From positions 124,001 to 188,000 of the forward strand of contig NZ_JAUSUI010000007.1 in NCBI RefSeq assembly GCF_030813495.1: a stretch of DNA of 64,000 bases, in the 5' to 3' direction. Origin of the DNA: Ancylobacter polymorphus. Lineage in GTDB: Bacteria; Pseudomonadota; Alphaproteobacteria; Rhizobiales; Xanthobacteraceae. Below the pieces are notes generated by a model that saw only the letters and a list, made by a program, of their open reading frames with translations, was not told the origin of the DNA and searched no databases. Below, piece by piece: positions 2,822-19,785 of this stretch; the stretch's first letter is position 1, and every line of letters begins with the position of its first letter. The translations under genes and the position numbers were made by a program.

Positions 2822-2834
2822 TCGTTCCGAACGA
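2822..2834. promoter_or_regulatory. candidate operator upstream of uricase operon
   Basis: TCGTTC-C-GAACGA is a perfect 6+1+6 inverted repeat located 28 bases before the uricase ATG, between divergent genes. Its size and position suit a MarR-, GntR- or LacI-type regulator site. No cognate regulator gene lies next to it, so the assignment is speculative. Confidence 0.4.
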
Positions 2835-2861
2835 CCGATCCGCAGCCGGGGGACAGTGCCG

Positions 2862-3701
2862 ATGCCGCTCATTTCCAACAGCTACGGCAAGGGCCGCGTG
2901 CGCATCATGCGCGTTGAGCGCGACAGCCCCCGCCATGAGGTGCGCGAGCTTTCCGTGCAGGCGATGCTGACCGGCGACTTCGCCGCCGCCTATACGCAGG
3001 GCGACAACCGGCAGGTCATCGCCACCGATTCGATCAAGAACATCATCAACATCGTTGCCCGCGACCATGTCGGGGCGGAGAACGAAGTGTTCGCCGGCGT
3101 GCTGGCGCAGTATTTCCTCGATCGCTACCCCCATGTCGCCGGCGTCGCCATCACTGCCCATGAGACGAAATGGCGGCGGATCGAGGTCGAGGGCGCCCCG
3201 CACGACCACGCCTTCGTGCTCGACGGCAATGGCCGGCCCGTCGTCCGGCTGGAGGCGACGCGCGAGGACAGCCGCCTCGCCTCCGGCGTCGAGGGCTTCA
3301 CCTTCCTCAAGACCACGCAGTCGGGCTGGGAGGATTACTGGTTCGACGAGGCGACGACGCTGAAGCCGACCGCCGACCGGCTGTTCGCCACCGCGATGGA
3401 GGCGCAGTGGCGCTGGAGCGGGGTGCCTGAGAGTTACGCCGCCGCCAATGCGGCGGTGCTCGACGCGGCGCTGAAAGTGTTCGCCACCACCTACAGCCCG
3501 GGTGTGCAGGCGACGCTGTACCAGATGGGCGAGGCGGTGCTGGCCGCCGTGCCCGAGGTGGCCGAGATCTCCATGGCCTGCCCGAACAAGCATTACCTCC
3601 CCATCGACCTCTCGCCCTTCGGCCGTGCCTTTGACGGGCAGGTCTTCACCCCGACCGACGAGCCGCACGGCCAGATCGTCTGCACCGTCGGGCGGGGCTG
3701 A
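2862..3701 (+). CDS. urate oxidase (factor-independent urate hydroxylase)
   Basis: A 279-residue cofactor-free uricase converting urate, O2 and water to 5-hydroxyisourate and H2O2. Features of the family's active site are visible: Lys10 in NSYGKG, Thr55 in VIATDSIKN, and a C-terminal His244 in CPNKHYLPIDL, matching the Lys/Thr/His set of uricases. Length agrees with bacterial uricases (about 280-330). The start at 2862 gives the conserved N-terminus; the open frame extends far upstream without homologous character. It is the first gene of a five-gene operon in which the last gene encodes the next two steps to allantoin. Confidence 0.93.
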   Translation: MPLISNSYGKGRVRIMRVERDSPRHEVRELSVQAMLTGDFAAAYTQGDNRQVIATDSIKNIINIVARDHVGAENEVFAGVLAQYFLDRYPHVAGVAITAHETKWRRIEVEGAPHDHAFVLDGNGRPVVRLEATREDSRLASGVEGFTFLKTTQSGWEDYWFDEATTLKPTADRLFATAMEAQWRWSGVPESYAAANAAVLDAALKVFATTYSPGVQATLYQMGEAVLAAVPEVAEISMACPNKHYLPIDLSPFGRAFDGQVFTPTDEPHGQIVCTVGRG

Positions 3702-3730
3702 GCAGCGGGAAGGGCGACGGGGATCGGCCG

Positions 3731-4564
3731 ATGGACCTCAACACGGTTTCCGAGGTGCTGCGTCCGCGCGCACGGGCGGAGCTTCCCGCCGCCGGTGCGG
3801 GCGACGCGGTGCTCGGCGGCGGCACCTGGCTGTTCTCCGAGCCGCAGCCTTCGGTACGGCGGCTGGTCGATCTCTCCGGCTTCGGGTGGGAGCCTGTCCG
3901 CGCCGGAGCGGGCGGGCTGAGCGTTGCCGCGACCTGCACCATTGCCGAACTCGCCGGCTTCGAGCCGCCGGTGGAGTGGCGGGCGGCCTTTCTCATCCGC
4001 GAATGCTGCCGCTCTTTCCTCGCCTCGTTCAAGATATGGAACATGGCGACGGTGGGCGGGAATATCTGCCTCGGCCTGCCGGCCGGGCCGATGATCTCCC
4101 TCGCCGTGGCGCTGGAAGGCGAGGGCGTGCTGTGGGGGCCGGACGGGGCCGAACGGCGGGTCCGCATCGCCGATCTCGTGCGCGGCCCGCGCGAGGTGGC
4201 GCTTGCGCCGGGGGAGGTGCTGCGCACGGTGGAGCTGCCGGCACGGGCGCTGCGCCGCCGCGCCGCCTTCCGTCGCGCCTCGCTGACCCCGCTCGGCCGC
4301 TCCGGCGTGCTGCTGATCGGCACGCGCGCGCCAGACGGCGCCTTCGCGCTCACGGTGACGGCCGCCACAAGGCGGCCGGTGGAAATCGCCTTTCCCGCTT
4401 TGCCGGGCCCGGCCGACCTCGCCGCGCGGCTCGCGGCGGCGATCCCGGAGACGCTCTATTATGACGACATGCACGGGCGGCCGCACTGGCGCCGCCACAT
4501 GACGCATCTTCTGGCGCAGGACATCCGCGACGAACTGAACGAACCGGGTGAGGGGCGCGCGTGA
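3731..4564 (+). CDS. FAD-binding subunit of molybdenum hydroxylase (xanthine dehydrogenase-like)
   Basis: A 277-residue CoxM/XdhB-FAD-type flavoprotein. The two FAD pyrophosphate-binding loops are visible as LGGGTWLFS (about residues 28-36) and [16 protein letters not shown] (about 103-118). It would carry electrons from the [2Fe-2S] clusters of the next gene product to NAD or another acceptor. It starts 29 bases after uricase and overlaps the next gene by four bases, so the two subunits are translationally coupled. Being a free subunit is notable, because in standard bacterial xanthine dehydrogenase the FAD domain is fused to the iron-sulphur domain. Confidence 0.88.
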
Positions 4565-7287
4565 GGCTCACCGTCAATGGCCGGTCCGTCGAGACCGAGG
4601 CCCGGCCGGGCCAGTGCCTGCGCACCCTGTTGCGCGAACTGGGCTGGTTCGGGGTGAAGAAGGGTTGCGATGCCGGCGATTGCGGTGCCTGCACGGTGCA
4701 TCTCGACGGCCGGCCGGTGCATAGCTGCGTCACTCCCGCGTTCCGCGCCGAGGGGCGGGCGGTCACCACCATTGAGGGGCTGGCGGACACGGCCGAGGGC
4801 GGCGGCCTGCACCCGATGCAGGAGGCGTTCCTTGCGGCGCAAGGCTTTCAGTGCGGCTTCTGCACCGCCGGCATGGTGATGACGTCAGCCGCGCTCGACC
4901 AGGGCCAGAGGGCGGATCTGCCGGACGCGCTCAAGGGCAATCTGTGCCGCTGCACCGGCTATGCCGCCATCGCCGATGCGGTGGCCGGGATCGCGACGGT
5001 GGAGGGCGATCCGACCGAGGCGCGCGTCGGCCGCAGCGTGGCGGCGCCGGCCGGGCCGGCGATCGTCACCGGCGCGGCGCGCTACACGATGGATGTGGCG
5101 CCGGAGGGCGACCTGGCGGGGCTTCTGCATATGAAGCTGCTGCGCTCGCCGCACCCGCACGCGCGCATCCGCGCCATCGACACGGCGGCGGCGCTGGCGC
5201 TGCCGGGGGTGGTGGCGGTGCTGACGCATGAGGACGCGCCTTCCCGCCTGTTCTCATCCGCCCGGCACCACCACGCCACCGACGATGCCGACGACACCCG
5301 CGTGCTCGACGATGTGGTGCGCCATATCGGCCAGCGCGTGGCCGCGGTGGTGGCGGTGAGCGAACAGGCGGCGGAGGCCGGTTGCGCAACGCTGTGCGTG
5401 GATTATGAGCCGCTGCCGGCGGTGTTCGACCCGGAGGAGGCGATGCGCCCCGGCGCGCCGCTGGTACATGGCGACAAGGGGCCGGACAGCCGCATCGCGG
5501 ACGCCTCCCGCAACATTGCCGCCGCGCTGGCAGGCGGGGTCGGGGATATCACCGCCGGCTTGGCTGCCGCCGATGTGATCCATGAGGCGACCTATGAGAG
5601 CCAGCGCGTCCAGCACGCGCATCTGGAAACCCATGGCTGCATTGGCTGGCGCGACGCGGATGGCCGGCTGGTGATCCGCAGCTCCACTCAGACGCCCTTC
5701 CTTACCCGCGACGCGCTGGCGGCGCTCTATGACCTGCCGCGCGAGAGCGTGCGCGTCTTCGCCGCGCGGGTGGGTGGCGGCTTTGGCGGCAAGCAGGAAA
5801 TGCTCACCGAGGACATCGTGGCGCTGGCGGTGCTGAAGACCGGGCGGCCGGTGAAGCTGGAATATACCCGCGCCGAGCAGTTCGCCGCCTCCACCAGCCG
5901 CCACCCGATGAAGGTGACGGTGACGCTCGGCGCGACGCGGGAGGGGCGGCTCACCGCCTTGTCGATGCGGATGCTGCTGAACACCGGCGCTTATGGCAAC
6001 CATGCGGCGGGCGTGTTGTTTCACGGCTCGGGCGAGAGCGTCGCGCTGTATAATTGCCCGAACAAGCGGGTGGAGGGTTGGTCGGTCTACACAAATTCCC
6101 TGCCCAGCGGCGCCTTTCGCGGCTATGGGCTGAGCCAGACCATCTTCGCGGTGGAATCGGCCATGGACGAGCTGGCGCATAAGCTTGGCATGGACCCCAT
6201 GACGCTGCGGCGGCTGAACATGGTGCGGCCGGGCGATGCGATGGTCTCCTCCGGTCCGCCGCACCACGATGTCGAGATGGGCAGCTACGGGCTCGACCAG
6301 TGCCTAGACCGGGTGGAGGCGGAACTGGCCAAGCCCTTGCCGGCGCGGCTGGGTCCGGACTGGCACGTTGGGCGCGGCGTCGCGGCGGCAATGATCGACA
6401 CCATTCCCCCGCGCGGCCATGTCGCGCAGACCCGGCTGACGCTGACCACCGACGGAACCTACGAACTGCGCATCGGCACGGCGGAGTTCGGCAACGGCAC
6501 CACCACCGTGCATGTGCAGATCGCCGCCACGCTGCTCGGCGCGCGGCCGGAGCAGATAAGCGTGCGCCAGTCCGACACCGCCCATGTCGACCACGACACC
6601 GGCGCCTATGGCTCGACCGGCACGGTGGTGGCCGGCAGCGCGACGCAGGCGGCGGCGGAAAGGCTGGCGGAAACGATCCGCGCGGCGGCCGCCGCCCGGC
6701 TGGGCGTGCCGGCCGAGGCTTGCCGGATCGAGGGCGAGGCGGTGGTGGCGGGGGAGAGGCGCATTGCCCTCGCCGCGCTGGCGCCGTTGGAGGCGGTGGG
6801 CGATGCGGGCGGTAGCCCGCGCTCGGTGGCGTTCAATGTGCAGGGTTTCGAGGTCGCGGTGCATGGGCGCAGCGGCGAAATCCGTATCCTGCGCTCCGTC
6901 CATGCGGCGGATGCCGGCACGGTGGTCAACCCCATGCAGTGCCGGGGCCAGGTGGAGGGTGGCGTCGCCCAGGCGATCGGCGCCGCGCTCTATGAACGGC
7001 TGATGATGGATGAGGTGGGCGCGGTGACCAATGCCAGCTTTCGCGGCTACCATATACCGGCCTTTGCCGATGTGCCGCGCACGCAGGTGTTCTTCGCCGA
7101 GACGTTTGATTCCATCGGCCCGCTGGGAGCGAAATCGATGAGCGAGAGCCCGTTCAATCCGGTGGCGGCGGCGCTCGCCAATGCGATCTTCGACGCCACC
7201 GGCGTGCGGCTGCGCGCCACGCCTTTCGTGGCCGATGAACTCTATGCGCTTCTGCCCGCCCAGGCGGCGAAGGAGGCCGCGTCATGA
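4561..7287 (+). CDS. fused [2Fe-2S]/molybdopterin subunit, xanthine dehydrogenase-like
   Basis: 908 residues from a GTG overlapping the previous stop. Residues 1-150 hold two [2Fe-2S] clusters: the plant-type set Cys36, Cys41, Cys44, Cys56, then CGFC and CRCTGY. The remainder is the molybdenum-binding domain pair, with [18 protein letters not shown] (the Arg aligns with the purine-binding Arg of xanthine dehydrogenases) and MSESPFNP (its Glu aligns with the catalytic Glu). The reaction is probably hypoxanthine/xanthine to urate, judging from flanking guanine deaminase and uricase. The layout matches FAD-less aldehyde oxidoreductases of about 907 residues, but a separate FAD gene precedes it. 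No XdhC-type maturation gene lies in the window. Confidence 0.88.
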
Positions 7288-8648
7288 GCGGGAGCCTTCA
7301 ATCGCGGGTGCTGCGCGGGCCGGCGGCCACGCTGGCGGGCAATCCGTTCGAGCAGCCCTCGCGCGGCTGCCTCATCACCCATGATGACGCGCTCATCATC
7401 ATCGAGGACGGGCGGATCGCCGCCTTCGGCCCCTATGCGGAGCTCAACGACACGCTGCCTGAGGGCGTCGCGGTGGAGCATTATCCCGGCCATCTTCTCG
7501 TGCCCGGTTTCATCGACGCGCATGTGCATTATCCGCAGATGCAGGTGATCGGCGCCTTCGGCACGCAATTGCTGGAATGGCTGGAGACCTACACCTTTCC
7601 CGCCGAGATGAGTTTTGCCGATGCCGGCCATGCCGGGCGGGTGGCGCATCTGTTCCTGCGCGAATTGCTGCGCGCCGGCACCACCACGGCGATGGTGTAT
7701 TGCACCATGCATCCGCAATCGGTGGACGCTTTCTTCACCGAGGCGGCACGGTTCGATGCGCGGATGATAGCCGGCAAAGTACTGATGGACCGACACGCGC
7801 CGGCGGGCCTGCTCGACACGGCCCAGCGCGGCTATGATGAAAGCCTCGCGCTGATCGAGCGCTGGCATGGGCGGGGCCGGGCGCTCTACTGCGTCACGCC
7901 GCGCTTCGCGCCGACCTCGACCGACGCCCAGCTCGACGCCGCCGGGGCACTGCTCAAGACACGGGACGGCCTCTTCCTGCAGACGCATCTGTGCGAGAAC
8001 CTGGCCGAAATCGAATGGGTGCGCGACCTCTTCCCCGCCCGCGCCTCCTATCTCGATGTCTATGCCCATGCCGGGCTGGTGGGCCCGCGCTCCATGTTCG
8101 GCCATGGCATCCATCTGCATGAAGGGGATTTCTGCACCTGCCACCAGGCGGGGGCGGCGCTGGCGCATTGCCCGACCTCCAACCTCTTTCTCGGCAGCGG
8201 CCTTTTCCGGCTGTTCGAGGCGGTGGACCCGCGCCGGCCGGTGAAAGTGGCGCTGGGCACCGATGTCGGCGGGGGCACGTCGCTGTCGCAGCTGCAGACG
8301 CTGAACGAGGCCTACAAGGTGGCGGCCATGGTCGGTCACAAGCTTGACGCGGTGCAGGGCTTTTATCTCGCCACTCTGGGCGGGGCGCGGGCGCTGGGGC
8401 TCGAGGATCGCATCGGCCGGCTGGCGCCGGGAATGGAGGCCGATATCTGCGTGCTCGACCCGAAGGCGACCCCGTTGATGGCGTTCCGCGCCGGCTATTG
8501 CGCCTCGATGGAGGAATTGCTGTTTCTCCTGATGACCTTGGGCGACGACCGGGCGGTGCGCGCCACCTATGTCGCCGGCCGCCCCGTCTATGACCGCGAC
8601 CGGTCGGGCGATCCGTTCCGGCCCGCGCATGGTGAGGAACAACCGTGA
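7284..8648 (+). CDS. guaD: guanine deaminase
   Basis: A 454-residue amidohydrolase that deaminates guanine to xanthine and ammonia. Zinc ligands are recognisable as His80 and His82 in DAHVHYPQ (the Tyr-Pro-Gln extension is typical of guanine deaminases), HLCEN, HGIHL and the Asp in GTDVGGG. The length fits the family. It overlaps the preceding gene by ATGA and the next by GTGA, placing it inside the coupled operon, where it feeds xanthine to the molybdenum enzyme. Confidence 0.93.
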
Positions 8649-9532
8649 CGCATCCCGTCTCCCTCGACACGCTCAACACGCTCGACCGCGAAGGTTTCAT
8701 CGCCGCGCTGGACGGCATTTTCGAGCACGCGCCCTGGGTGGCGGAGGCTGCCTTCGCCCATGCGCCCTTCGCCACCGTCTCGGCACTGCACGAGGCGCTG
8801 ATGGCTTGCGTGTGGGCGCGGCCGGAGGCGGAGCGTATCGCCTTCGTCGCGGCGCATCCCGACCTCGCCGGCAAGGCGGCGCGGGCCGGCGACATCGCCC
8901 CCGCCTCAGTGTCGGAACAGGCGGGGCTGGGGCTCGACCGGCTGTCGGATGCCGAGTTCGCCCGCTTCGAGCGGCTCAACGCCGCCTATCGCGCCCGCTT
9001 CGGCTTTCCCTTCGTCATCTGCGTGCGGCGGCAGACCCGCGACGCGCTGCTCGACGCCTTCGAGGCGCGCCTCTTGCACAAGCGTGACGAGGAACTTGCC
9101 GCCGCCTTGGTCGAAATCGGCCACATCACCGCGCTGCGGCTGGTGGAGCGGGTGACGGGCCCCGGCCTGCCGAACGTGCATGGCCGGCTGTCCACCCATG
9201 TGCTCGACACCCATAGAGGCGGGCCGGCGCAGGGCGTGCGGGTGGAGCTCTACGAGGTGGGGGCGAGCGCGCGGGCGCTTCTCACCGAGGCGGTGACCAA
9301 TGCGGACGGGCGCACCGACGCGCCGCTGATCTCCGGCGCGCCGCTGCGGGCGGGCCGCTATGAGCTGCTGTTTCATGTCGGCGCCTATTTCGCGGCGCGC
9401 GGGCTCGATGTGCCCGGCCCGGCCTTCCTCGACACGGTGCCGCTCCGCTTCGGCATCGCCGAGCCGGAGGGGCACTATCATGTGCCGCTGGTGGTGACGC
9501 CGTGGAGCTATTCCACCTATCGCGGCAGTTGA
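8645..9532 (+). CDS. bifunctional OHCU decarboxylase / 5-hydroxyisourate hydrolase
   Basis: 295 residues starting at a GTG. The N-terminal part (about 1-170) is a UraD-type OHCU decarboxylase with the catalytic HPDLAG and a GFPFV segment. The C-terminal part (about 178-295) is a transthyretin-related hydrolase with LSTHVLDTH at its start and the terminal YRGS signature. Together they convert 5-hydroxyisourate through OHCU to S-allantoin. The order mirrors plant allantoin synthase, and similar fusions are known in bacteria. It closes the operon and overlaps guanine deaminase by four bases. No allantoinase gene is in the window. Confidence 0.93.
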
Positions 9533-9552: not shown

Positions 9553-10095
9553 TCAATCGTCGGTGGGGCCGGAGAGGGTGTGGTAGCGGCGGCTGTAATA
9601 GATGAGGCTCTCATTCGAGCCGCCCTCGGCGACGCCGACCACCTCGCAGAACAGCACGTCATGGGTGCCGACCTCCACGGTGCGAACGATGCGGCAGTCG
9701 AAGGCAACGACCGCGCCGTCCAGCATCGGCGCGCCGGTGACGGCCGGCCGCCAGTTGCCGCTGGCGAAGCGCTCCTCCGGCGGGGTGCGGCCGCCGAACA
9801 GATTGGACAGCGGCTCGTGCCCGGCCGCCAGCGTGTTGATGCAGACGACGCCATTGGCATGGACGGGAGCGGCGGCGGAGGAACCCTTGTTGAGGCACAC
9901 CAACAGGGTCGGCGGGCTGTCGGTGACCGAGCACACCGCCGAGGCGGTGAAGCCGTGGCGCCCACCCGGTCCATCTGTCGTGACGATATTCACCGCCGCG
10001 CCGAGGCGGGCCATGGCGTTGCGGAAGCCCTGCCGGGTTACCGGCGGCGGGCCATTATCGGGAGCGCCGTCGAGCGGCGAGCACGGGGGGGACAT
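9553..10095 (-). CDS. flavin reductase family protein (RutF/NtaB-like)
   Basis: A 180-residue flavin reductase that would supply reduced FMN to the two-component monooxygenase encoded just upstream. The family core includes GFTASAVCSVTDSPPTLLVCLN (split here as GFTASAVCSV and PPTLLVCLN), the N of CINTLAAGHE, and HDVLFCEV. The ATG at 10095 is chosen because it has a strong AGGAAGGAG site and gives family length; the long upstream extension is out-of-family. It is the last gene of the minus-strand transporter/monooxygenase cluster and ends 20 bases from the convergent purine operon. Confidence 0.87.
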   Translation of the reverse strand: MSPPCSPLDGAPDNGPPPVTRQGFRNAMARLGAAVNIVTTDGPGGRHGFTASAVCSVTDSPPTLLVCLNKGSSAAAPVHANGVVCINTLAAGHEPLSNLFGGRTPPEERFASGNWRPAVTGAPMLDGAVVAFDCRIVRTVEVGTHDVLFCEVVGVAEGGSNESLIYYSRRYHTLSGPTDD

Positions 10096-10169
10096 GCCCT
10101 TCTCCTTCCTGCCGGACCAGCGCCGGCGCCGGCGGGCGCGGGGAATCCGCGCCCGATGGTTCGCGCGGG

Positions 10170-11483
10170 TCAGAACTCGCGCAGATTGTCGCGCAGCAGC
10201 TGGTGCTTGTATTCGGTGCGTACGAGGCCGCGCGCCTGCAGCTCCGGCACCAGCCCGTCGCAGATCTCGGCGATGTAGCGGCGGGAGACGCGCAGCACCG
10301 GGGTGGTGATGAGGAAGCCGTCGCCGCCCACTTCCGCCATCGCCTCGCCCATCTTGTCGGCGACCTGCGCCGGGGTGCCGATCAGTTCCATGGAGGAGAC
10401 GAGGCCGCCGCCGCCCGAGGCCGCGAGCTCGCGCAGCGTCTTGCCCGAGCCCCATTGCTGGAACTTGTCGAGCGTGCCGGATTCGCCGTTGGTGACGAGC
10501 TTTTCCGGCAGCGGCTTGTCGAGGTCGTATTTGGAAAAGTCGATCTCGGTGATGGCGGAGATCGAGATCAGCACGTCGGTGACGAAATTGTCCGACATGG
10601 TGACGTTCTCATAGCGGGCGCGCGCCTCCGCTTCGGTCTCGCCGAGGCTGGGGCAGATGCAGAAGAAGACCTTGATGTCGTCCGGGTTGCGGCCGATGGC
10701 TTCAGCGCGGGCGCGGATGTCGGCGCGGAACGCCTTCATTCCCTCGACCCCATTGGCGACCGAGACGATGGCGTCGGCATAGCGGGCGGCGAAATCCCGC
10801 CCGCGCGGGGAGGCGCCGGCCTGCAGATAGACCGGGCGGCGCTGCGGCGAGGGCACGGTGTTGAGCGGGCCGCGCACCTGGTAATATTTGCCCTTGTGGT
10901 CGATGGTGTGGACCTTGGAGCCATCGGCATAAATGCCGTTCTTGCGGTCGAGCACCACGGCGTCCGGCTCCCAGCTGTTGAACAGCTTGTCGCAGACTTC
11001 CATGTATTCCTCGGCCATGGCGTAGCGGTCCTCGCGCGGAGGCAGCTTGTCCATGCCGAAATTCTTCGCCATGAGGTCCTCGGCCGAGGTGACGACGTTC
11101 CAGCCGAAGCGGCCCTTGGTGAGGCTGTCGATGGTGGAAGACAGCCGCGCCAGCATGAAGGGCGGGTAGGCCATGGTGGACATGGTGGCGACGACGCCGA
11201 GATGCTGGGTCGCCATGCCCATGGCCACCGCCAGCGGGGCGGGGTCGGCCTTCGGCACCATCATGGCGTGCTTGAGCGAGAGGTCGCGCGATCCGCCATA
11301 GGTCTCCGGCACCATCAGCTTGTCCTCGATCATGATCAGATCGAAGCAGGCGCGCTCCATCGCCTGGGCCATCTCGATATAGAAACGGCCATCCCACGGG
11401 TTGCCGCCCTGGCCGAAGGGTTCGCGCCATTCGTCGGGCGTGAAGTTCATGAACCAGGCGAGGTGGAAGCGCTTGTCGGCCAT
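10170..11483 (-). CDS. FMN-dependent monooxygenase, NtaA/SnaA/DszA family
   Basis: A 437-residue luciferase-like (group C) flavin monooxygenase. Length and motifs (NPWDGRFYIEMAQAMERACFD near the N-terminus, GRFGWNVVTSAE, YLQAGASPRGRDFAA) place it with nitrilotriacetate monooxygenase and related enzymes rather than with shorter RutA. Such enzymes use reduced FMN from a partner reductase, here the next gene, to oxidise C-N, C-S or heterocyclic substrates. It follows an ABC importer in the same direction with a 4-base gap, so the imported compound is probably its substrate. The substrate cannot be read from sequence. Confidence 0.88.
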   Translation of the reverse strand: MADKRFHLAWFMNFTPDEWREPFGQGGNPWDGRFYIEMAQAMERACFDLIMIEDKLMVPETYGGSRDLSLKHAMMVPKADPAPLAVAMGMATQHLGVVATMSTMAYPPFMLARLSSTIDSLTKGRFGWNVVTSAEDLMAKNFGMDKLPPREDRYAMAEEYMEVCDKLFNSWEPDAVVLDRKNGIYADGSKVHTIDHKGKYYQVRGPLNTVPSPQRRPVYLQAGASPRGRDFAARYADAIVSVANGVEGMKAFRADIRARAEAIGRNPDDIKVFFCICPSLGETEAEARARYENVTMSDNFVTDVLISISAITEIDFSKYDLDKPLPEKLVTNGESGTLDKFQQWGSGKTLRELAASGGGGLVSSMELIGTPAQVADKMGEAMAEVGGDGFLITTPVLRVSRRYIAEICDGLVPELQARGLVRTEYKHQLLRDNLREF

Positions 11484-11487
11484 TGTG

Positions 11488-12336
11488 TCAGTCCTTCACT
11501 AAAGCGGTCTCGAATGCCGGGACGGTCGGGTCATCCCCGGTGGCGGGCGCGGCGGCGAGGAGGGCGAGGCGCACACGCGCGCGCTCCGCCTCGAACAGGC
11601 GGGATTCGCGCACGCTGCGGCACTTGGCTTCGAAATCGGAGACGATGCTGGCGCCGAAGCGCTCCGGCGCCTGCGGGTCGTTGCGCCGCTTGTCGACGGC
11701 GATGACGCGGGTGCCGAGCAGGAAGGCTTCGGGAAGATCATGCGTGACCATGACGATGGTCATGCGGTTCTCTTCCCAGAGTTCGCCCACCAGCTCGTGC
11801 ATGGATTTGCGGGTGCCGGGATCGAGCGCGCCGAAGGGCTCGTCGAGCAGCAGCACCTTCGGCTTCATGATCAGCGCCTGCGCCAAAGCGAGACGCTGCT
11901 GCATGCCGCCCGATAGCTGGGCGGGGTATTTGTGCGCGTGCTCGCCGAGCCCGACGCGGGTGAGCAGCGCCATCGCCTTTTCTTCCAGCGCCTTGCGGCG
12001 GGCGCCGAAGAAGCGGCCGAGGATCGGTGCGCCGGCCCATTGCGGGCCCATCATCACATTGCCCAGCACGGTGCGGTGCGGGAACACCGAATAGCGCTGG
12101 AACACCACGCCGCGATCGGCGGTCGGCTCGCTGGCGATGGGTTCGCCGTCGATCAGGATGCGCCCGCGCGTCGGCTGTTCCTGTGAGAGCAGCATGCGCA
12201 GCAGCGTGGTCTTGCCGACGCCGGACGGGCCGATGATGACGAGGAATTCATGGTCGTCGAGCGACAGGTTGACCTGTTCGAGCACGACCCGCTCGTCATA
12301 TTCCTTCCAGACGTTCTCGAAGGTGATGGTGGTCAT
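11488..12336 (-). CDS. ABC transporter ATP-binding protein (guanidine/urea-carboxylase-associated type)
   Basis: A 282-residue import ATPase of the nitrate/sulfonate/taurine superfamily. Walker A GPSGVGKTT lies at 36-44, the signature is LSGGMQQRLALAQAL, and Walker B is VLLLDEPFGALDPG. The stretch GVVFQRYSVFPH and the C-terminal extension after TRVIAVDK resemble ATPases annotated as urea-carboxylase-related, now tied to guanidine uptake. The gene abuts the permease stop directly and is followed by the monooxygenase. No urea or guanidine carboxylase is nearby, so this is likely a diverged paralogue with another nitrogenous substrate. Confidence 0.85.
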   Translation of the reverse strand: MTTITFENVWKEYDERVVLEQVNLSLDDHEFLVIIGPSGVGKTTLLRMLLSQEQPTRGRILIDGEPIASEPTADRGVVFQRYSVFPHRTVLGNVMMGPQWAGAPILGRFFGARRKALEEKAMALLTRVGLGEHAHKYPAQLSGGMQQRLALAQALIMKPKVLLLDEPFGALDPGTRKSMHELVGELWEENRMTIVMVTHDLPEAFLLGTRVIAVDKRRNDPQAPERFGASIVSDFEAKCRSVRESRLFEAERARVRLALLAAAPATGDDPTVPAFETALVKD

Positions 12337-13155
12337 TCAGGCCGCCTTTATCTGGTCCCAGGGATAGGCGGCGACGGCGAGGCGGCGCAGCGCGTAATCC
12401 ATGAGGAAGGCGAGGAGGGTGATCCAGATGACGTAGGGAAGGATCACATCCATGGCGAGGTAGCGCCGCACCAGGAAGATGCGGTAGCCGAGGCCGCCCT
12501 CGGAGGTGATGGCTTCCGCCGCGATGACGAACAGCCAGGCGGCGCCGAGGGAGAGCCGCACCGAGTCGATGAGGCGCGGCATCACCTGCGGCAGCACCAC
12601 GCCGGAGATCATCTGCCAGGTCGAGGCGCCGAGCGTCTGCGCCTTTATGATCTGTTCGGTCGGCAGGGCGGAGACCCGCAGCATCACGTCGCGGATGATG
12701 AAGGGGGCGATGCCGAAGACGATCAGCACGATCTTCGAGGCTTCGCCAAGGCCGAACAGGATGAACAGGATGGGCAGCACCGCCAGCGGCGGGATGAGCG
12801 AGAAGGCGGCGAAGAACGGCTCGAAAGTGGCGCGCAGATAGGGCACGAAGCCGACGATGATGCCGAGCACCAGGCCGAGCACGGCGGAAATGCCGAGGCC
12901 GAGGAAAAGGCGCTGCAGGCTGAGCCAGGTGTCCCACCACAGGAGATACTGGTTCGTCGCCTTGTCCACCGTGGTCGCCATGCGCACCATGGTGTTCCAG
13001 AAGCTGGCGAAGCTCGGCATCAGCTTGTCGGCCGGCTCCACCGCGAGGCGGGCATTCGAGCCCAGCATATAGATCGCCAGCACCACGACGAAGGGCAGGA
13101 TGGCGAGGATGAGCCGGACGCCGGGCCGGGGGGCGTAGTTGATGATGCGGCGCAT
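12337..13155 (-). CDS. ABC transporter permease
   Basis: A 272-residue inner-membrane permease with about six helices and a binding-protein-dependent transport motif near the cytoplasmic EAA loop (residues around IKAQTLGASTWQMISGVVLPQ). The start at 13155 is preferred because it follows GAAAGG and precedes the basic MRRIINY leader; further in-frame starts upstream would run into repeat DNA. The gene ends exactly where the ATPase ATG begins. The substrate-binding protein lies upstream, separated by a 430-base repeat-filled gap. Confidence 0.85.
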   Translation of the reverse strand: MRRIINYAPRPGVRLILAILPFVVVLAIYMLGSNARLAVEPADKLMPSFASFWNTMVRMATTVDKATNQYLLWWDTWLSLQRLFLGLGISAVLGLVLGIIVGFVPYLRATFEPFFAAFSLIPPLAVLPILFILFGLGEASKIVLIVFGIAPFIIRDVMLRVSALPTEQIIKAQTLGASTWQMISGVVLPQVMPRLIDSVRLSLGAAWLFVIAAEAITSEGGLGYRIFLVRRYLAMDVILPYVIWITLLAFLMDYALRRLAVAAYPWDQIKAA

Positions 13156-13584
13156 GCAGGGCCTTTCGGTTGCAATCGTCATCCCCGGGCTGAACCGCGT
13201 CCCGCGATGACCGTCATCCTGACGGGCCCGCGCGGATGCCGGCCTCGGTGGATGTTCAGGCACGTGAGAACCCAGCCTTTGAGGCTTGCTTCGCCCGTGC
13301 CTCGGAATGACCGCGCGTCGGGACAGTCTCTAAGGCGTTGCCGGCGTGTCCCCGGGCGCGCGGATCGGTGCCGCGGGTCCGGGGACGGGGATAGGGCACC
13401 AAGGGCCGTGTCCCCGGCGGAAGGTCTTCCTGAGGCGCCCATCCGCAGGGCGGGGCCCGAAGGAATGGTGGTGATGGCGCTGATGGAGCCCATCCTTCGA
13501 GGCTCGCGGCGCTCGCACCTCAGGATGACGGTGCTTTGAACGGTCTCTCAGGCGTCGCCGGGAGCTTGCGCAGAAGCCTGCCGC
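13156..13584. repeat. 429-base intergenic block of REP-like palindromes inside the transporter operon
   Basis: The gap between the binding-protein gene and the permease gene holds several imperfect palindromes: GTCATC...GATGAC at 13178-13211; a 16-bp stem with two mismatches (GTCCCCGG...CCGGGGAC) at 13348-13386; and CATCCTTCGAGG...CCTCAGGATG at 13491-13527. The last is of a type I recognise from many Rhizobiales genomes. No gene is supported here. Repeats after a binding-protein gene often allow it to be expressed more than the downstream membrane genes. Confidence 0.7.
13491..13527. repeat. Rhizobiales-type intergenic palindrome (CATCCT...AGGATG)
   Basis: A 37-base imperfect hairpin, CATCCTTCGAGG to CCTCAGGATG, reads on the other strand as the familiar CATCCTGAGG...CCTCGAAGGATG element. 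It lies immediately downstream of the substrate-binding protein gene end in the direction of transcription. Confidence 0.7.
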
Positions 13585-14664
13585 TCACAGCTTCCCGTCG
13601 GCCGCGTCCTTGGTGAAGCTGGCATTGACCCGCATCTTGATGTTGGCCTTGTCACCCAGGACGGTGCCGTCGGCGACTTCGATGCCGATGGAATCGACGC
13701 TGGTGGCGCCCTGGCCGAACAGGCCCTGCTGGAAGCAGAAAGTGCGGATATTGTCCCAGATCTTGGCGTTGTCGGGCGAGAGCAGGAAGCTGGCGGCCTC
13801 CTGGGGAGTGTAGAAGAAATGGGTGGTGTCGAGCTGGGCCTGCAGGCCGCCGGCATCCGTGCCCATGGCGCTGGTCATCACCGCGCGCATTTCCTCGCCT
13901 GCCGCGCCGCCGGCCTTGAGGATGCCGAGCGCCTCGTACCAAGCGCCGACCACCGCCTTGGCGAAGTCCGGATTGTCCTTGAGCGTGGCGGTGTTGCCGA
14001 TGAACACATCCATGATCTCGCCGGGGATCTTGGACGAGTCGAACAGGTTGGTGGTGCCGGAGACCTTGAGCATATCCTCGGTGAGCGGCTTCCACGACAC
14101 CGCGTGCTTCATGTCGGCCTGCGAGATGAAGGCGGCGGAGATTTCCGAATCCGAGATGTTCACCGTCTTGGTGGCGGTGGGATCGTCGATGCCGGCGAGC
14201 TGAAGGCCGCGGTTGAGCAGATAGTGCGAGACGCTGTACTGCAGCAGGTACACGTCCTGCCCGGCCAGTTCCTTCACGTTCTTCGCGGTCTTGGAAAGAA
14301 CGATGTCGTTGCCGTTGGAATAGTCGGTGATCAGCAGGATGGAGGTGTCGACGCCGCCGGCCGCCGGCATGGTGAGGCCGTCCATCGAAGCCACGCCCAC
14401 CGCGTCGATCTCGCCGGCAATGAACTGGTTGATCGAACCGACATAATCGTTGGCCTGGATGATCTCGACATCGATGCCGTATTTGTCGGCCCATTTCTTC
14501 ATGATGCCGGAAGACTTCATGTAAGCGAAGGGCATGAACCCGATATAGACGGTGTAGGCGACCTTGAAACTCTTCTTCGGGGCGGCATGCGCCGCAGGCG
14601 CCCCCGCAAGGGCTGCGGCGGCGAGGCTGGCGAAGACGGCTGCAGCCCTGATTATGCGCTTCAT
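13585..14664 (-). CDS. ABC transporter substrate-binding protein, NMT1/ThiY-like (guanidine-uptake type)
   Basis: A 359-residue periplasmic binding protein with a signal peptide (basic MKRIIRA, hydrophobic core, cleavage near AHAAPKK about residue 28). The mature N-terminus FKVAYTVYIGFMPFAY, KKWADKYGI, and the later MDGLTMPAAGGVD and SNGNDIVL resemble binding proteins annotated in urea carboxylase regions that were later linked to guanidine uptake. It heads the minus-strand operon (SBP, permease, ATPase, monooxygenase, flavin reductase) and is divergent from a TetR gene. The upstream 136 bases show no ykkC riboswitch that I can recognise. Confidence 0.87.
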   Translation of the reverse strand: MKRIIRAAAVFASLAAAALAGAPAAHAAPKKSFKVAYTVYIGFMPFAYMKSSGIMKKWADKYGIDVEIIQANDYVGSINQFIAGEIDAVGVASMDGLTMPAAGGVDTSILLITDYSNGNDIVLSKTAKNVKELAGQDVYLLQYSVSHYLLNRGLQLAGIDDPTATKTVNISDSEISAAFISQADMKHAVSWKPLTEDMLKVSGTTNLFDSSKIPGEIMDVFIGNTATLKDNPDFAKAVVGAWYEALGILKAGGAAGEEMRAVMTSAMGTDAGGLQAQLDTTHFFYTPQEAASFLLSPDNAKIWDNIRTFCFQQGLFGQGATSVDSIGIEVADGTVLGDKANIKMRVNASFTKDAADGKL

Positions 14665-14702
14665 GAGGGGTGGCTCCGGTCGCTGAAATGGCTGGACCGG
14701 GT

Positions 14703-14722
14703 TATTAAACGGTGACTTAATA
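14703..14722. promoter_or_regulatory. candidate TetR operator
   Basis: TATTAA-N8-TTAATA is a perfect 6-bp inverted repeat in the divergent promoter region between the substrate-binding protein gene and the tetR gene. It is AT-rich in a GC-rich setting, which fits both a promoter and a TetR site controlling both directions. Confidence 0.5.
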
Positions 14723-14732
14723 TGACGTGCAA

Positions 14733-14747
14733 GCCCAACAAATGGGC
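14733..14747. promoter_or_regulatory. second small inverted repeat in divergent promoter
   Basis: GCCC-AACAAAT-GGGC, with outer CGT and ACG at 14726-14728 and 14748-14750, lies next to the AT-rich candidate operator. It may be a second regulator half-site pair or chance. Confidence 0.3.
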
Positions 14748-14800
14748 ACGCTTAGCATATGAGCAAGGCAGAAAATTCCGTACAAATACGGAGGAATCGC

Positions 14801-15424
14801 ATGACCGCACGCAGCGCGCGCAAGCGCCTTCAGCCCGCCGAGCGGCGGGTTCTGATCCTGGAAGAAGCGTTGCGGCTGTTCGCGTCGCGCCATTTCTCCG
14901 TCGTCACGGTGCGCGACATCGCGCTGGTCTGCGACATCAATGTCGGGCTGCTCTACCACTATTTCGAGAACAAGGACGATCTGGTGCGCCGCGCGCTTGG
15001 GCACGCCATCGAGCAGCTCGTGGCCGGCTATGAGGAGCGGCGCGCCGCCGGGGCGGAACCACTGGCGGAAATCCTCGCCTGGCTCGACATCCATATGGAA
15101 CTGGCGCCGACCCTCGCCCTGATGGTCAAGTTGATGAGCGACTATGCCTCCTCCGGCCTGCGCGATGCGGAACTCGACGTGCTGATTGCCGGCTTCTACG
15201 GCCGCGAGCAGCAACTGCTGGAGGGCGCGCTGGCGCGCGGGGTGGCGAGCGGCGCCTTTGCCCCGGTCGACATCGCCCGCACCGCCCGGCGGATCGGGCT
15301 GATGCTCGACGGCATCTTCCACGCCTCCGCCAGCCGCGGCGATGACCGTATCGTCGCCGACATCGCCGATCTCGCCGATTTCGTGCGCGAATTGCTGGCG
15401 GTGCGCAGCGTGTCGGGGGGCTGA
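14801..15424 (+). CDS. TetR/AcrR family transcriptional regulator
   Basis: A 207-residue TetR-type repressor. The helix-turn-helix spans about residues 35-57 (VTVRDIALVCDINVGLLYHYFENKDDL). The remaining residues form the variable ligand-binding helical domain. The ATG at 14801 is chosen over an upstream start because GGAGG sits 6 bases before it. Divergent position suggests control of the substrate-binding protein/monooxygenase operon, and perhaps of the IorAB-like genes downstream. The ligand is unknown. Confidence 0.88.
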   Translation: MTARSARKRLQPAERRVLILEEALRLFASRHFSVVTVRDIALVCDINVGLLYHYFENKDDLVRRALGHAIEQLVAGYEERRAAGAEPLAEILAWLDIHMELAPTLALMVKLMSDYASSGLRDAELDVLIAGFYGREQQLLEGALARGVASGAFAPVDIARTARRIGLMLDGIFHASASRGDDRIVADIADLADFVRELLAVRSVSGG

Positions 15425-15577: not shown

Positions 15578-16033
15578 ATGAAATTCACACTCAATGGTCG
15601 CGAGCAGGCGCTGGAGGCTGACGGCGATATGCCGCTGCTCTGGGCGATCCGCGACCTGGCCGGGCTGACCGGCACCAAGTTCGGCTGCGGCGCCGCCCTG
15701 TGCGGCGCCTGCACCGTGCATGTGGATGGAGCGCCGGTGCGTTCCTGCCAGACCTCCCTGTCCGATGTCGAGGGCAAGAGCGTCACCACCATCGAGGGCG
15801 TCGCCGCCAGCAAGGTGGGCGCGGCGGTGGTTGACGCCTGGCGCAAGCTCGACGTGGTGCAGTGCGGCTATTGCCAGTCCGGGCAGATCATGTCGGCGGT
15901 CGGCCTGCTGAGCGAAAACCGCGCGCCGACCGACGCCGACATCGACGCCGCCATGGACGGCAATGTCTGCCGCTGCGCCACTTATCAGCGCATCCGCGCC
16001 GCCATCCACGAAGCCGCCTCCAACCTCGGGTGA
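15578..16033 (+). CDS. (2Fe-2S)-binding subunit, IorA/CoxS-like
   Basis: A 151-residue small subunit of a molybdenum hydroxylase. The plant-type cluster ligands are Cys37, Cys42, Cys45 and Cys57, and the second cluster uses CGYC and CRC near residues 97 and 130. It relays electrons from the molybdenum subunit encoded next. The gene starts 153 bases after tetR, following GGAGA-like sequence, and ends five bases before the large-subunit ATG. Two-subunit enzymes of this kind (isoquinoline 1-oxidoreductase, membrane aldehyde dehydrogenases) have no FAD subunit, and none is found here. Confidence 0.92.
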
Positions 16034-16038
16034 TCGCC

Positions 16039-18258
16039 ATGCACCTCCTCACACCCGACCAGTACCGGCAGATGCTCGCGGGCATGGGCGCCCCGGGGGC
16101 GGCTACGCGCCGCAGCTTCCTCAAGGGGCTCGCCGCCGCCGGCGGCGCGCTCGTCATCGGCGTGCATCTCGGCCCGCGCCTCGCGCAGGCGGAGGAAGCC
16201 GCTGCCGCCCCGCCTGCTCCGCCGATGCCCAATGCCTTTGTGCGCATCGCGCCCGACAACACGGTGACGGTGCTCATCAAGCATGTCGACATGGGGCAGG
16301 GAGTCACCACCGGCCTGCCAACCATCGTGGCGGAAGAGCTTGGTGCCGACTGGAGCCAGATGCGCACCGCCTTTGCCCCGGCCGATGCCAGACTCTACAA
16401 CAACCTCGCCTTCGGACCGGTCCAGGGCACGGGCGGCTCCACCTCCATCGCCAATAGCTGGGAGCAGCTGCGCCGGGCCGGCGCGGCGGCGCGCGCCATG
16501 CTGGTCGAGGCGGCTGCCAGGCAGTGGGGCGTGCCGGCCGACAGCATCACAGTCGAGAAGGGGGTGCTGAAAAGCGGCACGCATTCCGGCAGCTTTGGCG
16601 ACTTCGCGGAAGCCGCCGCCCGGCTGCCGGTGCCGGCCGATGTCAAGCTGAAAGACCCCAGGGATTTCACGCTGATCGGCACGAAGCTGCCCCGGCTTGA
16701 TTCCGCCACCAAAACCGACGGCAGCGCGACCTATGCGCTGGACATGCGCCGGCCGGGCATGCTCACCGCCGTGGTCCGCCGGCCGGACCGCTTCGGCGCG
16801 ACGGTAAAGAGCTTCGACGCCACCGCCGCGACGAAAGTGCCGGGTGTGGTCGAGGTGGTGGCAGTGCCTTCCGGCATCGCGGTGCTCGCGACCAACACCT
16901 GGGCGGCGATCCAGGGCCGCGACGCGCTCGCCGGCCTTGTCTGGGACGAGGCCAAGGCCGAGATGCGCGGCTCCGCCGAGCTTTTCGACGAATACGCCAA
17001 GCTGGCGAAGACGCCGGGCCTCCCCGCCGCCCGCCGGGGCGACGCGGCCAAGGGGCTGGAGAAGGCCTCGAAGATCATCGAGGCCGAGTTCAGCTTCCCC
17101 TATCTCGCCCATGCGCCGATGGAGCCGCTGAACTGCGTGATCGAGAAGACCGGCGAGGGCGTCACCATCTGGACCGGTTCGCAGTTCCAGACCATCGAGC
17201 AGGCGGTCACCGCCGGCATTCTCGGTGTGAAGCCCGAGCAGGTGAAGATCGAGTCGCTCTATGCCGGCGGCTCCTTCGGCCGCCGCGCCAACCCGCCGGC
17301 GGATTATGTCGCGGAAGCCGCCACCATCCTCAAGGCGATCGACGGGCGCGCGCCGGTCCATCTCGTCTGGACCCGCGAGGACGACATCAAGGGCGGCTAT
17401 TACCGGCCCATGTTCTACCACTCGGTGCGCGCCGGCCTGACGGCGGACGGCAAGATTGCCGGCTGGGACCAGCGCATCGTCGGCCAGTCCTTCATCGTCG
17501 GCACCCCGTTCGAGGCCTTCATCATCAAGGAGGGCGTCGACGGCACATCGGTGGAGGGGGCCTCCGATACCAATTACGCCATCAACGATTTCCGGGTCGA
17601 CCTGCACACGGCCAAGGTGGGCGTGCCCACGCTATGGTGGCGCTCGGTCGGTCACACCCACACCGCCCATGTGGTGGAGGTGATGATCGACGAGCTCGCC
17701 CATGCGGCGGGGCGTGATCCGGTCGCGTTCCGGCTGGAACTGCTGCAGGACAAGCCGCGCCACGCCGCCGTGCTGAAGCTGCTGGCGGAGAAGGCGGAAT
17801 GGGGCGGGAAGCCCGGCGCCGGCAAGGGGCGCGGCGTGGCGCTGCATGAGAGCTTCAACACCGTGGTCGGCAGCGTCATCGACGTGTCGGTGGTCGAGGG
17901 GCGGATCAAGGTCGAGCGCGTCGTCTGCGCGGTGGATTGCGGCATCGCCATCAATCCGGACGTGATCGCGGCGCAGATCGAGGGGGGCGTCGGCTTCGGC
18001 CTCGGCGCGGCACTGCATGACGAGATCACGCTGGACGGCGGCGTGGTCGAGCAGGCCAATTTCGACACCTATGTGCCGCTGCGCATGTCGGAAATGCCCA
18101 AGGTCGAGGTGCATATCCTCCCCTCGGCCAATCCGCCGACGGGAATCGGCGAGCCGGGGGTGCCGGGGGTGGCGCCCGCCCTCTCCAACGCCATCTTCGC
18201 CGCCACCGGCCAGAGGCTGCGCTCGCTCCCCTTCCGCTTGGAGGACTTCAAGGTCTGA
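16039..18258 (+). CDS. molybdopterin-binding large subunit, IorB-like, with Tat signal
   Basis: A 739-residue molybdenum-binding subunit of the isoquinoline 1-oxidoreductase/aldehyde oxidase type. Residues about 24-50 form a twin-arginine signal (TRRSFLKG followed by an Ala/Gly-rich helix), implying folded export with the cofactor. Molybdenum-domain motifs include GGSFGRRA, a duplicated core, and [16 protein letters not shown] with the catalytic Glu near the C-terminus. Such enzymes oxidise N-heterocycles or aldehydes and pass electrons toward cytochromes. Substrate unknown; the neighbourhood suggests a nitrogen heterocycle or an aldehyde. Confidence 0.88.
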
Positions 18259-18289
18259 CGGCGCGTCCGGCGCAACGCTCCGTAAAATG

Positions 18290-18317
18290 AAAAGGCCGGT
18301 CGCGAGACCGGCCTTTT
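18290..18317. terminator. bidirectional terminator between iorB-like gene and gabD
   Basis: A perfect 12-bp stem (AAAAGGCCGGTC / GACCGGCCTTTT) with GCGA loop sits between two convergent genes, serving both. Confidence 0.9.
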
Positions 18318-18339
18318 GCCTCACGCGTATTTTGCCGGC

Positions 18340-19785
18340 TTACAGGCCGCCAATGCACACATATTTCACATCGAGATATTCCTCGATGCCGTATTTCGAA
18401 CCTTCGCGGCCGACGCCGGATTCCTTCACCCCGCCGAAGGGCGCGACTTCCGTGGTGATGACGCCGGCATTGATGCCGACCTGGCCGTAGCGCAGATTTT
18501 CCGAGACGCGGAAGGCACGGGCGAGATCGCGCGTGTAGAAATAGCAGGCAAGGCCGAACTCGGTGTCGTTGGCGAGGCGCACCGCTTCTTCCTCGGTCTC
18601 GAAGCGGAACACCGGGGCGACCGGGCCGAAGATTTCCTCGCGGGCGAAATTCATCTCCGCCGTCGCATCGGCGATGACGGTGGGCTGGAAGAACTGGCCG
18701 CCGAGCGCATGCCGCCCGCCGCCGGTGACGACCTTGCCGCCCTTGGCGAGCGCGTCGGCGACGAAGCTCTCGGTCTTGGCCACCGCCTTGTCGTCGATCA
18801 GCGGGCCCTGAACGACGCCTTCCTCGAGGCCGGAGCCGACCTTCAGCTTGGCCGAGGCGGCGGCGAGCTTTTCCACGAACGCGTCATAGATCCCGGCCTG
18901 GGCATAGAAACGATTGGCGCAGACGCAGGTCTGGCCGGAGTTGCGGTATTTGGAGGCGATGGCGCCTTCCACCGCCTTGTCGAGATCGGCGTCGTCAAAA
19001 ATGACGAAGGGCGCGTTGCCACCGAGTTCCATCGACACGCGCTTCACCGTGTCGGCGGCCTGCTTCATCAAGAGCTTGCCGATGGGGGTGGAGCCGGTGA
19101 AGGTGATCTTGCGCACGATCGGGTTCGTGGTCATCTCGCCGCCAATGGCCGAGGCCGAGCCGGTGAGGATGTTGACCACGCCCTTGGGATAGCCGGCCTG
19201 TTCGCACAGCACGCCCCAGGCGAGGCCGGAATAGGGGGTCTGGGTCGCCGGCTTCATCACCGAGGTGCAGCCGGTGGCGAGCGCCGGGCCGATCTTGCGC
19301 GCCGCCATGGAGGAGGGGAAGTTCCACGGCGTGATGGCGGCGACCACGCCGACAGGCTGCTTGGTCGCGAGGATGCGCCGCTCAGCCCAGGGCGAGGGAA
19401 TCACGTCGCCATAGACGCGGCGGGCTTCTTCCGAAAACCACAGCACATAGGCGGCGCTGGCGCCGACCTCGCCCATGGATTCGGTGAGCGGCTTGCCCTG
19501 CTCGATGGTCAGCAGCTCGGCGAGTGCGCGCTGATTGTCCATGATGGCGGTGTAGAGGCGGCGCAGCAGTTTGGCGCGTTCATCCGCCGTGGTGCGCGAG
19601 AAGCTCTCGAAGGCACGCTCGGCGGCGGCGATGGCGCGGCGGGTCTCATCCGTGCCGGCATTGGGCACGGTGCCGATCACTTCGCCCGTGGCCGGGTTGG
19701 TGACCTCGATCGTGCCGCCGCTGTCGGCGCCGACCCACTGCCCGTCGATGAGATTCGCGTCGCGCTTGAAATCCGCCCAGTTCAT
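18340..19785 (-). CDS. gabD: NAD(P)-dependent succinate-semialdehyde dehydrogenase
   Basis: A 481-residue aldehyde dehydrogenase of the GabD group, converting succinate semialdehyde to succinate in GABA breakdown. Active-site features are ITPWNFPSSM (Asn), MELGGNAPF (Glu) and NSGQTCVCANR (nucleophilic Cys followed by the second Cys typical of GabD). Length and the C-terminal PFGGVKESGVGREGSKYGIEEYLDVKY, in short pieces, fit the subfamily. It stands alone, convergent with the IorB-like gene. No GABA aminotransferase is adjacent, so the aldehyde source is elsewhere. Confidence 0.92.
   Translation of the reverse strand: MNWADFKRDANLIDGQWVGADSGGTIEVTNPATGEVIGTVPNAGTDETRRAIAAAERAFESFSRTTADERAKLLRRLYTAIMDNQRALAELLTIEQGKPLTESMGEVGASAAYVLWFSEEARRVYGDVIPSPWAERRILATKQPVGVVAAITPWNFPSSMAARKIGPALATGCTSVMKPATQTPYSGLAWGVLCEQAGYPKGVVNILTGSASAIGGEMTTNPIVRKITFTGSTPIGKLLMKQAADTVKRVSMELGGNAPFVIFDDADLDKAVEGAIASKYRNSGQTCVCANRFYAQAGIYDAFVEKLAAASAKLKVGSGLEEGVVQGPLIDDKAVAKTESFVADALAKGGKVVTGGGRHALGGQFFQPTVIADATAEMNFAREEIFGPVAPVFRFETEEEAVRLANDTEFGLACYFYTRDLARAFRVSENLRYGQVGINAGVITTEVAPFGGVKESGVGREGSKYGIEEYLDVKYVCIGGL

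Follow-up and report, generated by a model that had tools for sequence, protein, structure and literature searches.

Which compound is taken up and oxidised by the products of an operon in Ancylobacter polymorphus that joins an ATP-binding cassette (ABC) importer to a flavin-dependent monooxygenase? The operon lies in a stretch of 64,000 nucleotides (contig NZ_JAUSUI010000007.1, positions 124,001 to 188,000; hereafter the window), where the genes of a binding protein, a permease, an ATPase, a monooxygenase and a flavin reductase run on the minus strand from 14664 down to 9553. A divergent TetR-family gene completes a set of six. A preliminary description had reported this combination of importer, NtaA-type monooxygenase, reductase and TetR gene, and reading frames, families and placement were confirmed. 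It had also proposed import of a small nitrogenous compound followed by oxygenation, which our data support, with the substrate and the reaction still to be inferred from context.

Based on sequence comparison, we hypothesize that the operon imports an N-substituted guanidine, from which oxidative N-dealkylation by the flavin enzyme would free guanidine for use as nitrogen source. We regard the chances of this proposal as evenly balanced; that the substrate is some guanidino compound appears rather probable. A guanidino substrate is indicated by the kinship of the binding protein, by carboxylase and riboswitch neighbours in related loci, and by a riboswitch-led guanidinase in the Ancylobacter genome.

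Conservation of the six-gene unit and its palindrome

A scan of a genome collection for the monooxygenase contributed 78 loci among the matches listed, and 3 plasmid matches brought the sample to 81. The monooxygenase is at least 70% identical in 58 of these listed loci, 55–70% identical in 19 and below 55% in 4. Within the group of 58, the TetR gene is a divergent neighbour in 52, the three importer genes adjoin the monooxygenase in 40, and the flavin reductase gene does so in 37. All six genes occur together in 33 of the 58 loci, and the arrangement described for the window does recur in other genomes, with an order conserved far beyond chance. These neighbour counts are lower bounds, because some loci stop near contig ends. 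At the thresholds used, TetR, importer and reductase genes were found in 0 of the 19 loci of 55–70% identity and in 0 of the 4 below 55%. Outside the 81, related importer genes do accompany the monooxygenases of loci L143 (62%) and L132 (57%). Hosts include Ancylobacter, Rhizobium, Peteryoungia, Hansschlegelia, Methylopila, Chelatococcus and Salipiger. The monooxygenase is uncommon: in a sample of 297 genomes from the order, 19 have it at E ≤ 1e-150, the Ancylobacter genome counted.

The TetR gene (14759..15424, plus strand; PF00440 48.7 bits) is separated from the binding-protein gene by a region that holds a palindrome, TATTAA-N8-TTAATA (14703..14722, without strand). At least 16 of 20 positions match TATTAAACNNNNGTTTAATA in 51 of 53 TetR intergenic regions, the region of the window counted, and the two exceptions (L025, L028) match at 14 of 20. 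Shuffled controls reached 16 of 20 in 0.64% of 2650 trials. Close relatives make up many of the 53 regions; loci of Parvibaculum, Hansschlegelia, Methylopila and the Acidocella group share the palindrome too. In the Ancylobacter genome (4.71 Mb) it has a single exact copy; a wider regulon was looked for through further exact copies and none was found, mismatched sites not having been sought. Since the palindrome is conserved and its exact site single, a local regulator with one site is supported. Presumably the palindrome is the TetR operator and controls transcription in both directions. It also differs from what we take to be the site of RutR.

Binding protein and importer specificity

The periplasmic binding protein (13585..14664, minus strand) belongs to the guanidine/urea-carboxylase-associated family (TIGR03427 ABC_peri_uca, 404 bits; cut-off 333.9). 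A search of the Ancylobacter genome gave one TIGR03427 protein over cut-off (403.9 bits), the one in the window. In a tree of 77 binding proteins, computed by a quick method with no bootstrap and with long branches flagged, the 44 monooxygenase-linked proteins form one clade (Shimodaira-Hasegawa-like approximate likelihood ratio test, SH-aLRT, 100; stem of 1.02 changes per column). This clade attaches among binders of guanidine operons, with support of 87–94 for the nesting branches, such that a sister position is possible. The resemblance to the guanidine-operon transporter family noticed in the preliminary description is borne out by this grouping. As to an unrelated characterised binder as close kin, the only solved match is taurine-binding TauA, at E 6.2e-5. 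The 23 guanidine-operon rows of the tree comprise 13 from behind guanidine-I riboswitches and ten plasmid loci, of which 8 are annotated with urea carboxylase and urea-amidolyase-associated protein (UAAP) and 6 carry guanidine-I riboswitches; L154 has neither. The binder of L143, beside the paralogous monooxygenase of 62% identity, falls among the guanidine binders and represents a second pairing. Its genome (G111) also has L145, with a binder identical to that of L035 of Hansschlegelia quercus.

For comparison of residues, the 44 sequences were set against 22 guanidine-operon sequences at conservation of 90% and 85%. L154 was left out because of its long branch and the lack of guanidine genes in view; plasmid rows were left out of the two structure alignments, and L179 is an incomplete sequence. 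Both groups have N72, D73, Y74, D95, D114, D120, W191, E216 and D219 in common, among others. Fourteen conserved positions set them apart, including W37Y, W43F and E76G. The secondary structure of an AlphaFold model (mean predicted local distance difference test, pLDDT, 86.0) places position 37 at the end of the first strand and 43 in the loop that follows; 76 falls in the opening turn of the helix behind the second strand. SsuA and TauA are fold neighbours of the protein, and we take this region to be the ligand-holding site in binders of their type; by this analogy, residues 37, 43 and 76 would lie at the ligand pocket. Two smaller aromatic residues and the loss of a carboxylate suggest a bulkier, substituted guanidine as ligand. 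Eleven genomes (those of L024, L029, L030, L033, L034, L036, L037, L040, L042, L043 and L044) have both riboswitch-linked and monooxygenase-linked binders, and the presence of two kinds within one genome argues for different ligands.

Links to guanidine degradation

In the Acidocella group, which comprises nine loci with monooxygenases of 71–76% identity and an unrelated importer set (SBPb), a guanidine/urea carboxylase gene lies within 10 kb of the monooxygenase in five. A guanidine-I riboswitch leads a run of UAAP1, UAAP2, carboxylase and allophanate hydrolase genes in L048 and L052 (91.6 and 89.7 bits; gathering threshold 63), convergent with the monooxygenase-importer operon. On one strand of L051, the order is UAAP1-UAAP2-carboxylase-allophanate hydrolase-monooxygenase-binding protein-permease-ATPase, and no riboswitch was found before this operon even at a lax threshold. 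In L045 and L047 the carboxylase is at the contig end, with no riboswitch in view. Interpretation of the Acidocella-group gene as a plain urea carboxylase was dropped once UAAP1/UAAP2 and the guanidine-I riboswitch had been found. Given these guanidine-carboxylase neighbours, guanidine is predicted as the product.

No urea carboxylase over cut-off was found in the whole Ancylobacter genome. On another contig of this genome, a guanidine-I riboswitch (83 bits) precedes a protein that scores 548 bits to structures 7esr/7oi1. These are deposited as 'probable agmatinase 2', and we take them to be the Synechocystis guanidinase GdmH. The preliminary description had seen no carboxylase and no ykkC-like RNA. 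This is true of the window, where the only match of an Rfam scan of 64 kb is a tRNA and no guanidine riboswitch was found, and where no carboxylase, deiminase, UAAP1/2 or allophanate hydrolase is among the six genes of the operon; it is misleading, however, for the genome, with its guanidine-I riboswitch, and for the relatives. Likewise, an alkylated guanidine, one of the substrates it had considered, gains from the riboswitch, carboxylase and GdmH context, whereas nothing beyond a RutF-like reductase under cut-off speaks for the pyrimidine or N-heterocycle that it had named alongside.

The riboswitch is found over cut-off in 43 of 50 genomes carrying the monooxygenase. By hand tally, the next gene in 30 riboswitch loci with sequence encodes a GdmH orthologue (12), a guanidine-type binder (13) or a UAAP (4), one locus being cut short. 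Three of the seven genomes without riboswitch (L045, L047, L051) have the carboxylase, which is also present in four outside the 50 (L022, L027, L054, L074). In the 297-genome sample of the order, the riboswitch is over cut-off in 54 genomes: 15 of the 19 that carry the monooxygenase and 39 of the 278 that lack it (Fisher 2.9e-9, kinship ignored).

Some further genes were observed around such riboswitches. Near the riboswitch-led guanidinase in L165 (10793-17690) are genes for GTP cyclohydrolase II, a DUF1688 protein and, by eye, a uracil phosphoribosyltransferase-like protein, together with one for a His-rich protein of 171 amino acids with no Pfam match. In L180 (G329, the genome of L039, Hansschlegelia plantiphila), an NtaA-family match of 35% identity and a guanidine-I riboswitch accompanied by UAAP genes are in divergent orientation.

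Proposed function

The monooxygenase (10170..11483, minus strand) belongs to the NtaA/DmoA family (TIGR03860, 431.2 bits; cut-off 279.7) and is presumably an FMNH2-dependent (reduced flavin mononucleotide) enzyme of the bacterial luciferase-like type. Its nearest relatives, of 91–97% identity, are in named Ancylobacter species. Its best solved relatives are DmoA, DszA and LadA (268–276 bits, DmoA being the best at 276), a deposited nitrilotriacetate monooxygenase (3sdo) scores 209 bits, and the predicted structure has a mean pLDDT of 87.4. The reductase (9553..10095, minus strand; PF01613 144.6 bits) scores 248.3 with the RutF model, just under the cut-off of 254.75, and presumably is a RutF/HpaC-like NADH:FMN reductase that supplies reduced FMN. 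Enzymes of the family of NtaA, EmoA, DmoA and DszA usually oxidise a carbon next to nitrogen or sulfur and cleave there, with loss of an aldehyde; for NtaA and DmoA, the bonds cleaved are C-N and C-S.

We propose that the importer would take up a small N-substituted guanidine and that the two-component FMN monooxygenase would oxidise the carbon beside nitrogen to a hemiaminal. This may then give free guanidine and a carbonyl compound, such as formaldehyde, glyoxylate or another. The freed guanidine would pass to the guanidinase GdmH in Ancylobacter, and in relatives to guanidine carboxylase, carboxyguanidine deiminase and allophanate hydrolase. TetR may repress the operon by binding its one local palindrome, from which substrate or product would release it. 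The most likely candidates for the substrate are creatine, compounds derived from creatinine, and methylguanidine.

Paralogues of the monooxygenase were seen in other settings. The Ancylobacter genome has a second one of 63% identity (L129, C4:59584-60894) with a LysR-like gene. Tandem paralogues of 57–61% identity occur in L131 and L133-L136, in genomes of two families (f11 and f18), accompanied by two matches to flavin reductase and by a LysR-like gene.

Objections and alternative explanations

Several observations weigh against the proposed function. Among the 58 listed loci, nine have the unrelated SBPb importer set directly downstream and nine have neither importer type beside the monooxygenase. 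The carboxylase linkage amounts to one change on the monooxygenase tree, though it comes in three arrangements. In four of the 50 genomes (L025, L026, L028, L049), no guanidine-I riboswitch over cut-off, carboxylase (E ≤ 1e-300) or GdmH (E ≤ 1e-60, a search with no positive genome) was found; that of L049 has a weak UAAP-like match of 81.5 bits. In Streptomyces/Kutzneria, carboxylase was found in 1 of 5 genomes and GdmH in 0 of 3 tested. The association of riboswitch and monooxygenase is confounded by kinship, as family f35 has the riboswitch both with and without the monooxygenase. Two more objections, concerning the single binder of the genome and the creatininase genes, belong to competing explanations.

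The TIGR03427 binder in the window, being the only one over cut-off in the Ancylobacter genome, may simply serve the guanidinase. The importer would then bring guanidine itself to GdmH, and the monooxygenase would be separate or accessory, for example in demethylating contaminating methylguanidine. An importer was also not recognised among four scanned GdmH neighbours. We nevertheless consider this explanation unlikely, given the eleven genomes with both kinds of binder and the conserved pocket-loop changes that set monooxygenase-linked binders apart. Moreover, a TetR palindrome and no riboswitch precedes the operon, and importers of two unrelated kinds are maintained beside the monooxygenase.

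Creatininase homologues lie within 10 kb of the monooxygenase in 9 of the 81 listed loci, corresponding to four changes on the tree. In Salipiger, the creatininase gene is directly downstream, in the order monooxygenase-creatininase-SDR1-SDR2 (SDR, short-chain dehydrogenase/reductase). Its product scores 230 bits to solved creatininase and 314 with TIGR04448 (cut-off 235), and has Asn in place of the His of the NGHYEN motif of solved creatininase, presumably a metal ligand. Beside the TetR gene of A. crimeensis, the order is ureohydrolase-creatininase-SDR2-SDR1-TetR, and L045 and L052 also have a creatininase neighbour. Five Streptomyces/Kutzneria loci have creatininase directly upstream of the monooxygenase; the Kutzneria protein, at 201 bits, is below the TIGR04448 cut-off of 235. 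The creatininase-monooxygenase pair stands beside condensation and AMP-binding genes in Streptomyces L060 (scanned) and Kutzneria L064 (matched), a context that may indicate biosynthesis there. By eye, a chorismate-enzyme-like gene also follows the pair in both loci.

Creatininases and guanidinopropionase-like ureohydrolases act on guanidino compounds, and for this reason such neighbours support the guanidino substrate class. Plain N-dealkylation, however, leaves the creatininase and SDR neighbours unexplained, and these may point to a creatinine-type substrate or to another pathway. In a cyclic-guanidine or creatinine pathway, creatininase, two SDRs and a guanidinopropionase-like ureohydrolase would do the main work; the monooxygenase would oxidise a ring or side-chain carbon to yield a guanidino acid and then urea, with no free guanidine. 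Besides the neighbours listed above, a run of SDR1-SDR2-creatininase-ureohydrolase-ureohydrolase genes on contig 4 of the Ancylobacter genome would fit such a pathway. Still, 72 of the 81 listed loci lack a creatininase gene inside the 10-kb range, including 17 of 18 in the Ancylobacter group (some loci being short), Asn replaces the His of NGHYEN in the Salipiger homologue, and a urea-yielding pathway is at odds with guanidine as the product predicted from carboxylase neighbours. Thus a creatinine pathway appears improbable as the role of the operon.

The contig-4 run itself (L097 8012-13306, at 436-441 kb) is accompanied by a divergent LysR-like gene, and the best match of its first ureohydrolase is 3-guanidinopropionase (414 bits). 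A role of the tandem ureohydrolases as dimethylguanidine hydrolase is not supported, since the first scores 84–92 bits to the metformin hydrolase subunits; the operon possibly represents an undescribed guanidino pathway. At about 36 kb of contig 4 (L098 9142-9954), a second creatininase is over cut-off (372 bits), adjoined by IclR-like and TRZ/ATZ-like amidohydrolase genes as judged by eye.

Acquisition of a sulfonate or other organosulfur compound, as by ssu or tau systems, seems very unlikely. Such systems have a similar make-up of binding protein, permease, ATPase, flavin monooxygenase and reductase, the fold neighbours of the binder are SsuA and TauA, and DmoA is the best solved relative of the monooxygenase. 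On the other hand, scores are far from those of the sulfonate models (SsuA 53.7 vs 163.5, TauA 25.7 vs 490, SsuD 50.1 vs 518.2), the conserved acidic residues of the binder suit a cation, and guanidine genes are recurrent neighbours in relatives, sulfur genes not having been searched for. Membership in ssu/tau was rejected on family model scores, as was membership in Rut, with RutA (72.2 vs 498.3 bits) and RutR (25.9 vs 368 bits) under cut-off.

A purine- or pyrimidine-derived substrate, suggested by the RutF-like reductase and by purine genes on the left of the operon (2160-9532, plus strand: uricase, the FAD part of xanthine dehydrogenase, a fused Fe-S/molybdenum xanthine dehydrogenase, guanine deaminase, and a fusion of OHCU (2-oxo-4-hydroxy-4-carboxy-5-ureidoimidazoline) decarboxylase and HIUase (5-hydroxyisourate hydrolase)), is hardly to be expected and a purine-linked function was rejected, as these genes adjoin the operon in six of 18 other Ancylobacter-group loci (L005-L021, L046), are about 7 kb off in L021, and outside the group leave OHCU decarboxylase unmatched, with guanine deaminase matched weakly, at 24%, in L066 alone.

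Comparison with known systems

MgdH/MgdL of Vreelandella is reported to demethylate methylguanidine, with an oxidative upper step joined to the guanidine-carboxylase pathway and an ABC importer (PMC12508155; see also PMC12186494 and PMC11399263). An ABC importer and, by our prediction, an oxidative step and guanidine as product are shared with the operon described here. In contrast, MgdH/MgdL are a 2-oxoglutarate/Fe dioxygenase and a lyase under a riboswitch, whereas a flavin monooxygenase with reductase from unrelated families is found here, with a TetR gene. No dioxygenase or lyase of the MgdH/MgdL type is among the six genes of the operon, and the rest of the genome was not searched for it.

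NtaA/NtaB and DmoA are similar in the TIGR03860 family, in the reductase partner and, from what is known of NtaA and DmoA, presumably in C-N or C-S cleavage; the kinship is moderate (276 bits to DmoA, 209 bits to 3sdo), and the neighbours are different. Guanidine carboxylase operons have a TIGR03427 binder with permease and ATPase of the same type, but the window has no carboxylase, deiminase or riboswitch, and its binder is in a clade of its own (W37Y, W43F, E76G). The Rut pathway likewise combines a flavin monooxygenase with a RutF-like reductase and a TetR-family regulator, although the RutA and RutR models are far under cut-off. The ssu/tau systems share importer type and two-component monooxygenase with the operon, while their SsuA, TauA and SsuD models were missed.

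Further features of the locus

The importer ATPase (11488..12336, minus strand; PF00005 117.5 bits) is TauB/SsuB/NrtD-like, and the permease (12337..13155, minus strand; PF00528 75.2 bits) is TauC/SsuC-like. A longer permease start at 13263 is unlikely because the median length of homologues is 272 amino acids. The genes of permease, ATPase and monooxygenase are 0–4 bp from each other, followed by 74 bp to the reductase gene. A gap of 429 bp (13156-13584) separates the binding-protein and permease genes, and contains three copies of a GTCATCCTGAGG-type repeat (0–3 mismatches) and a 24-nt inverted pair. Beyond the TetR gene, 15578-19785 encodes a two-gene molybdenum hydroxylase, which we take to be isoquinoline-oxidoreductase-like, and an aldehyde dehydrogenase; these are syntenic with the operon in some Ancylobacter loci.

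Significance

Among the papers listed, judged by titles and abstract openings and with subscription journals mostly outside the coverage, none connects a flavin monooxygenase with the metabolism of guanidine. The operon is a combination of known families for which no report was found, and its function is testable. Tentatively, it may represent a flavin-dependent N-dealkylase that releases guanidine and is served by a separate importer, under TetR control, for a substituted guanidine, and, where creatininase partners are present, possibly a route from creatinine or creatine to guanidine in soil and marine bacteria. If true, guanidine formation would extend to an enzyme class in which it has not been known until now. 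The unit would give a candidate importer with a ligand other than guanidine, and, tied to guanidine degradation as it would be, it would supply a source of guanidine, a question that could then be tested with two purified proteins.

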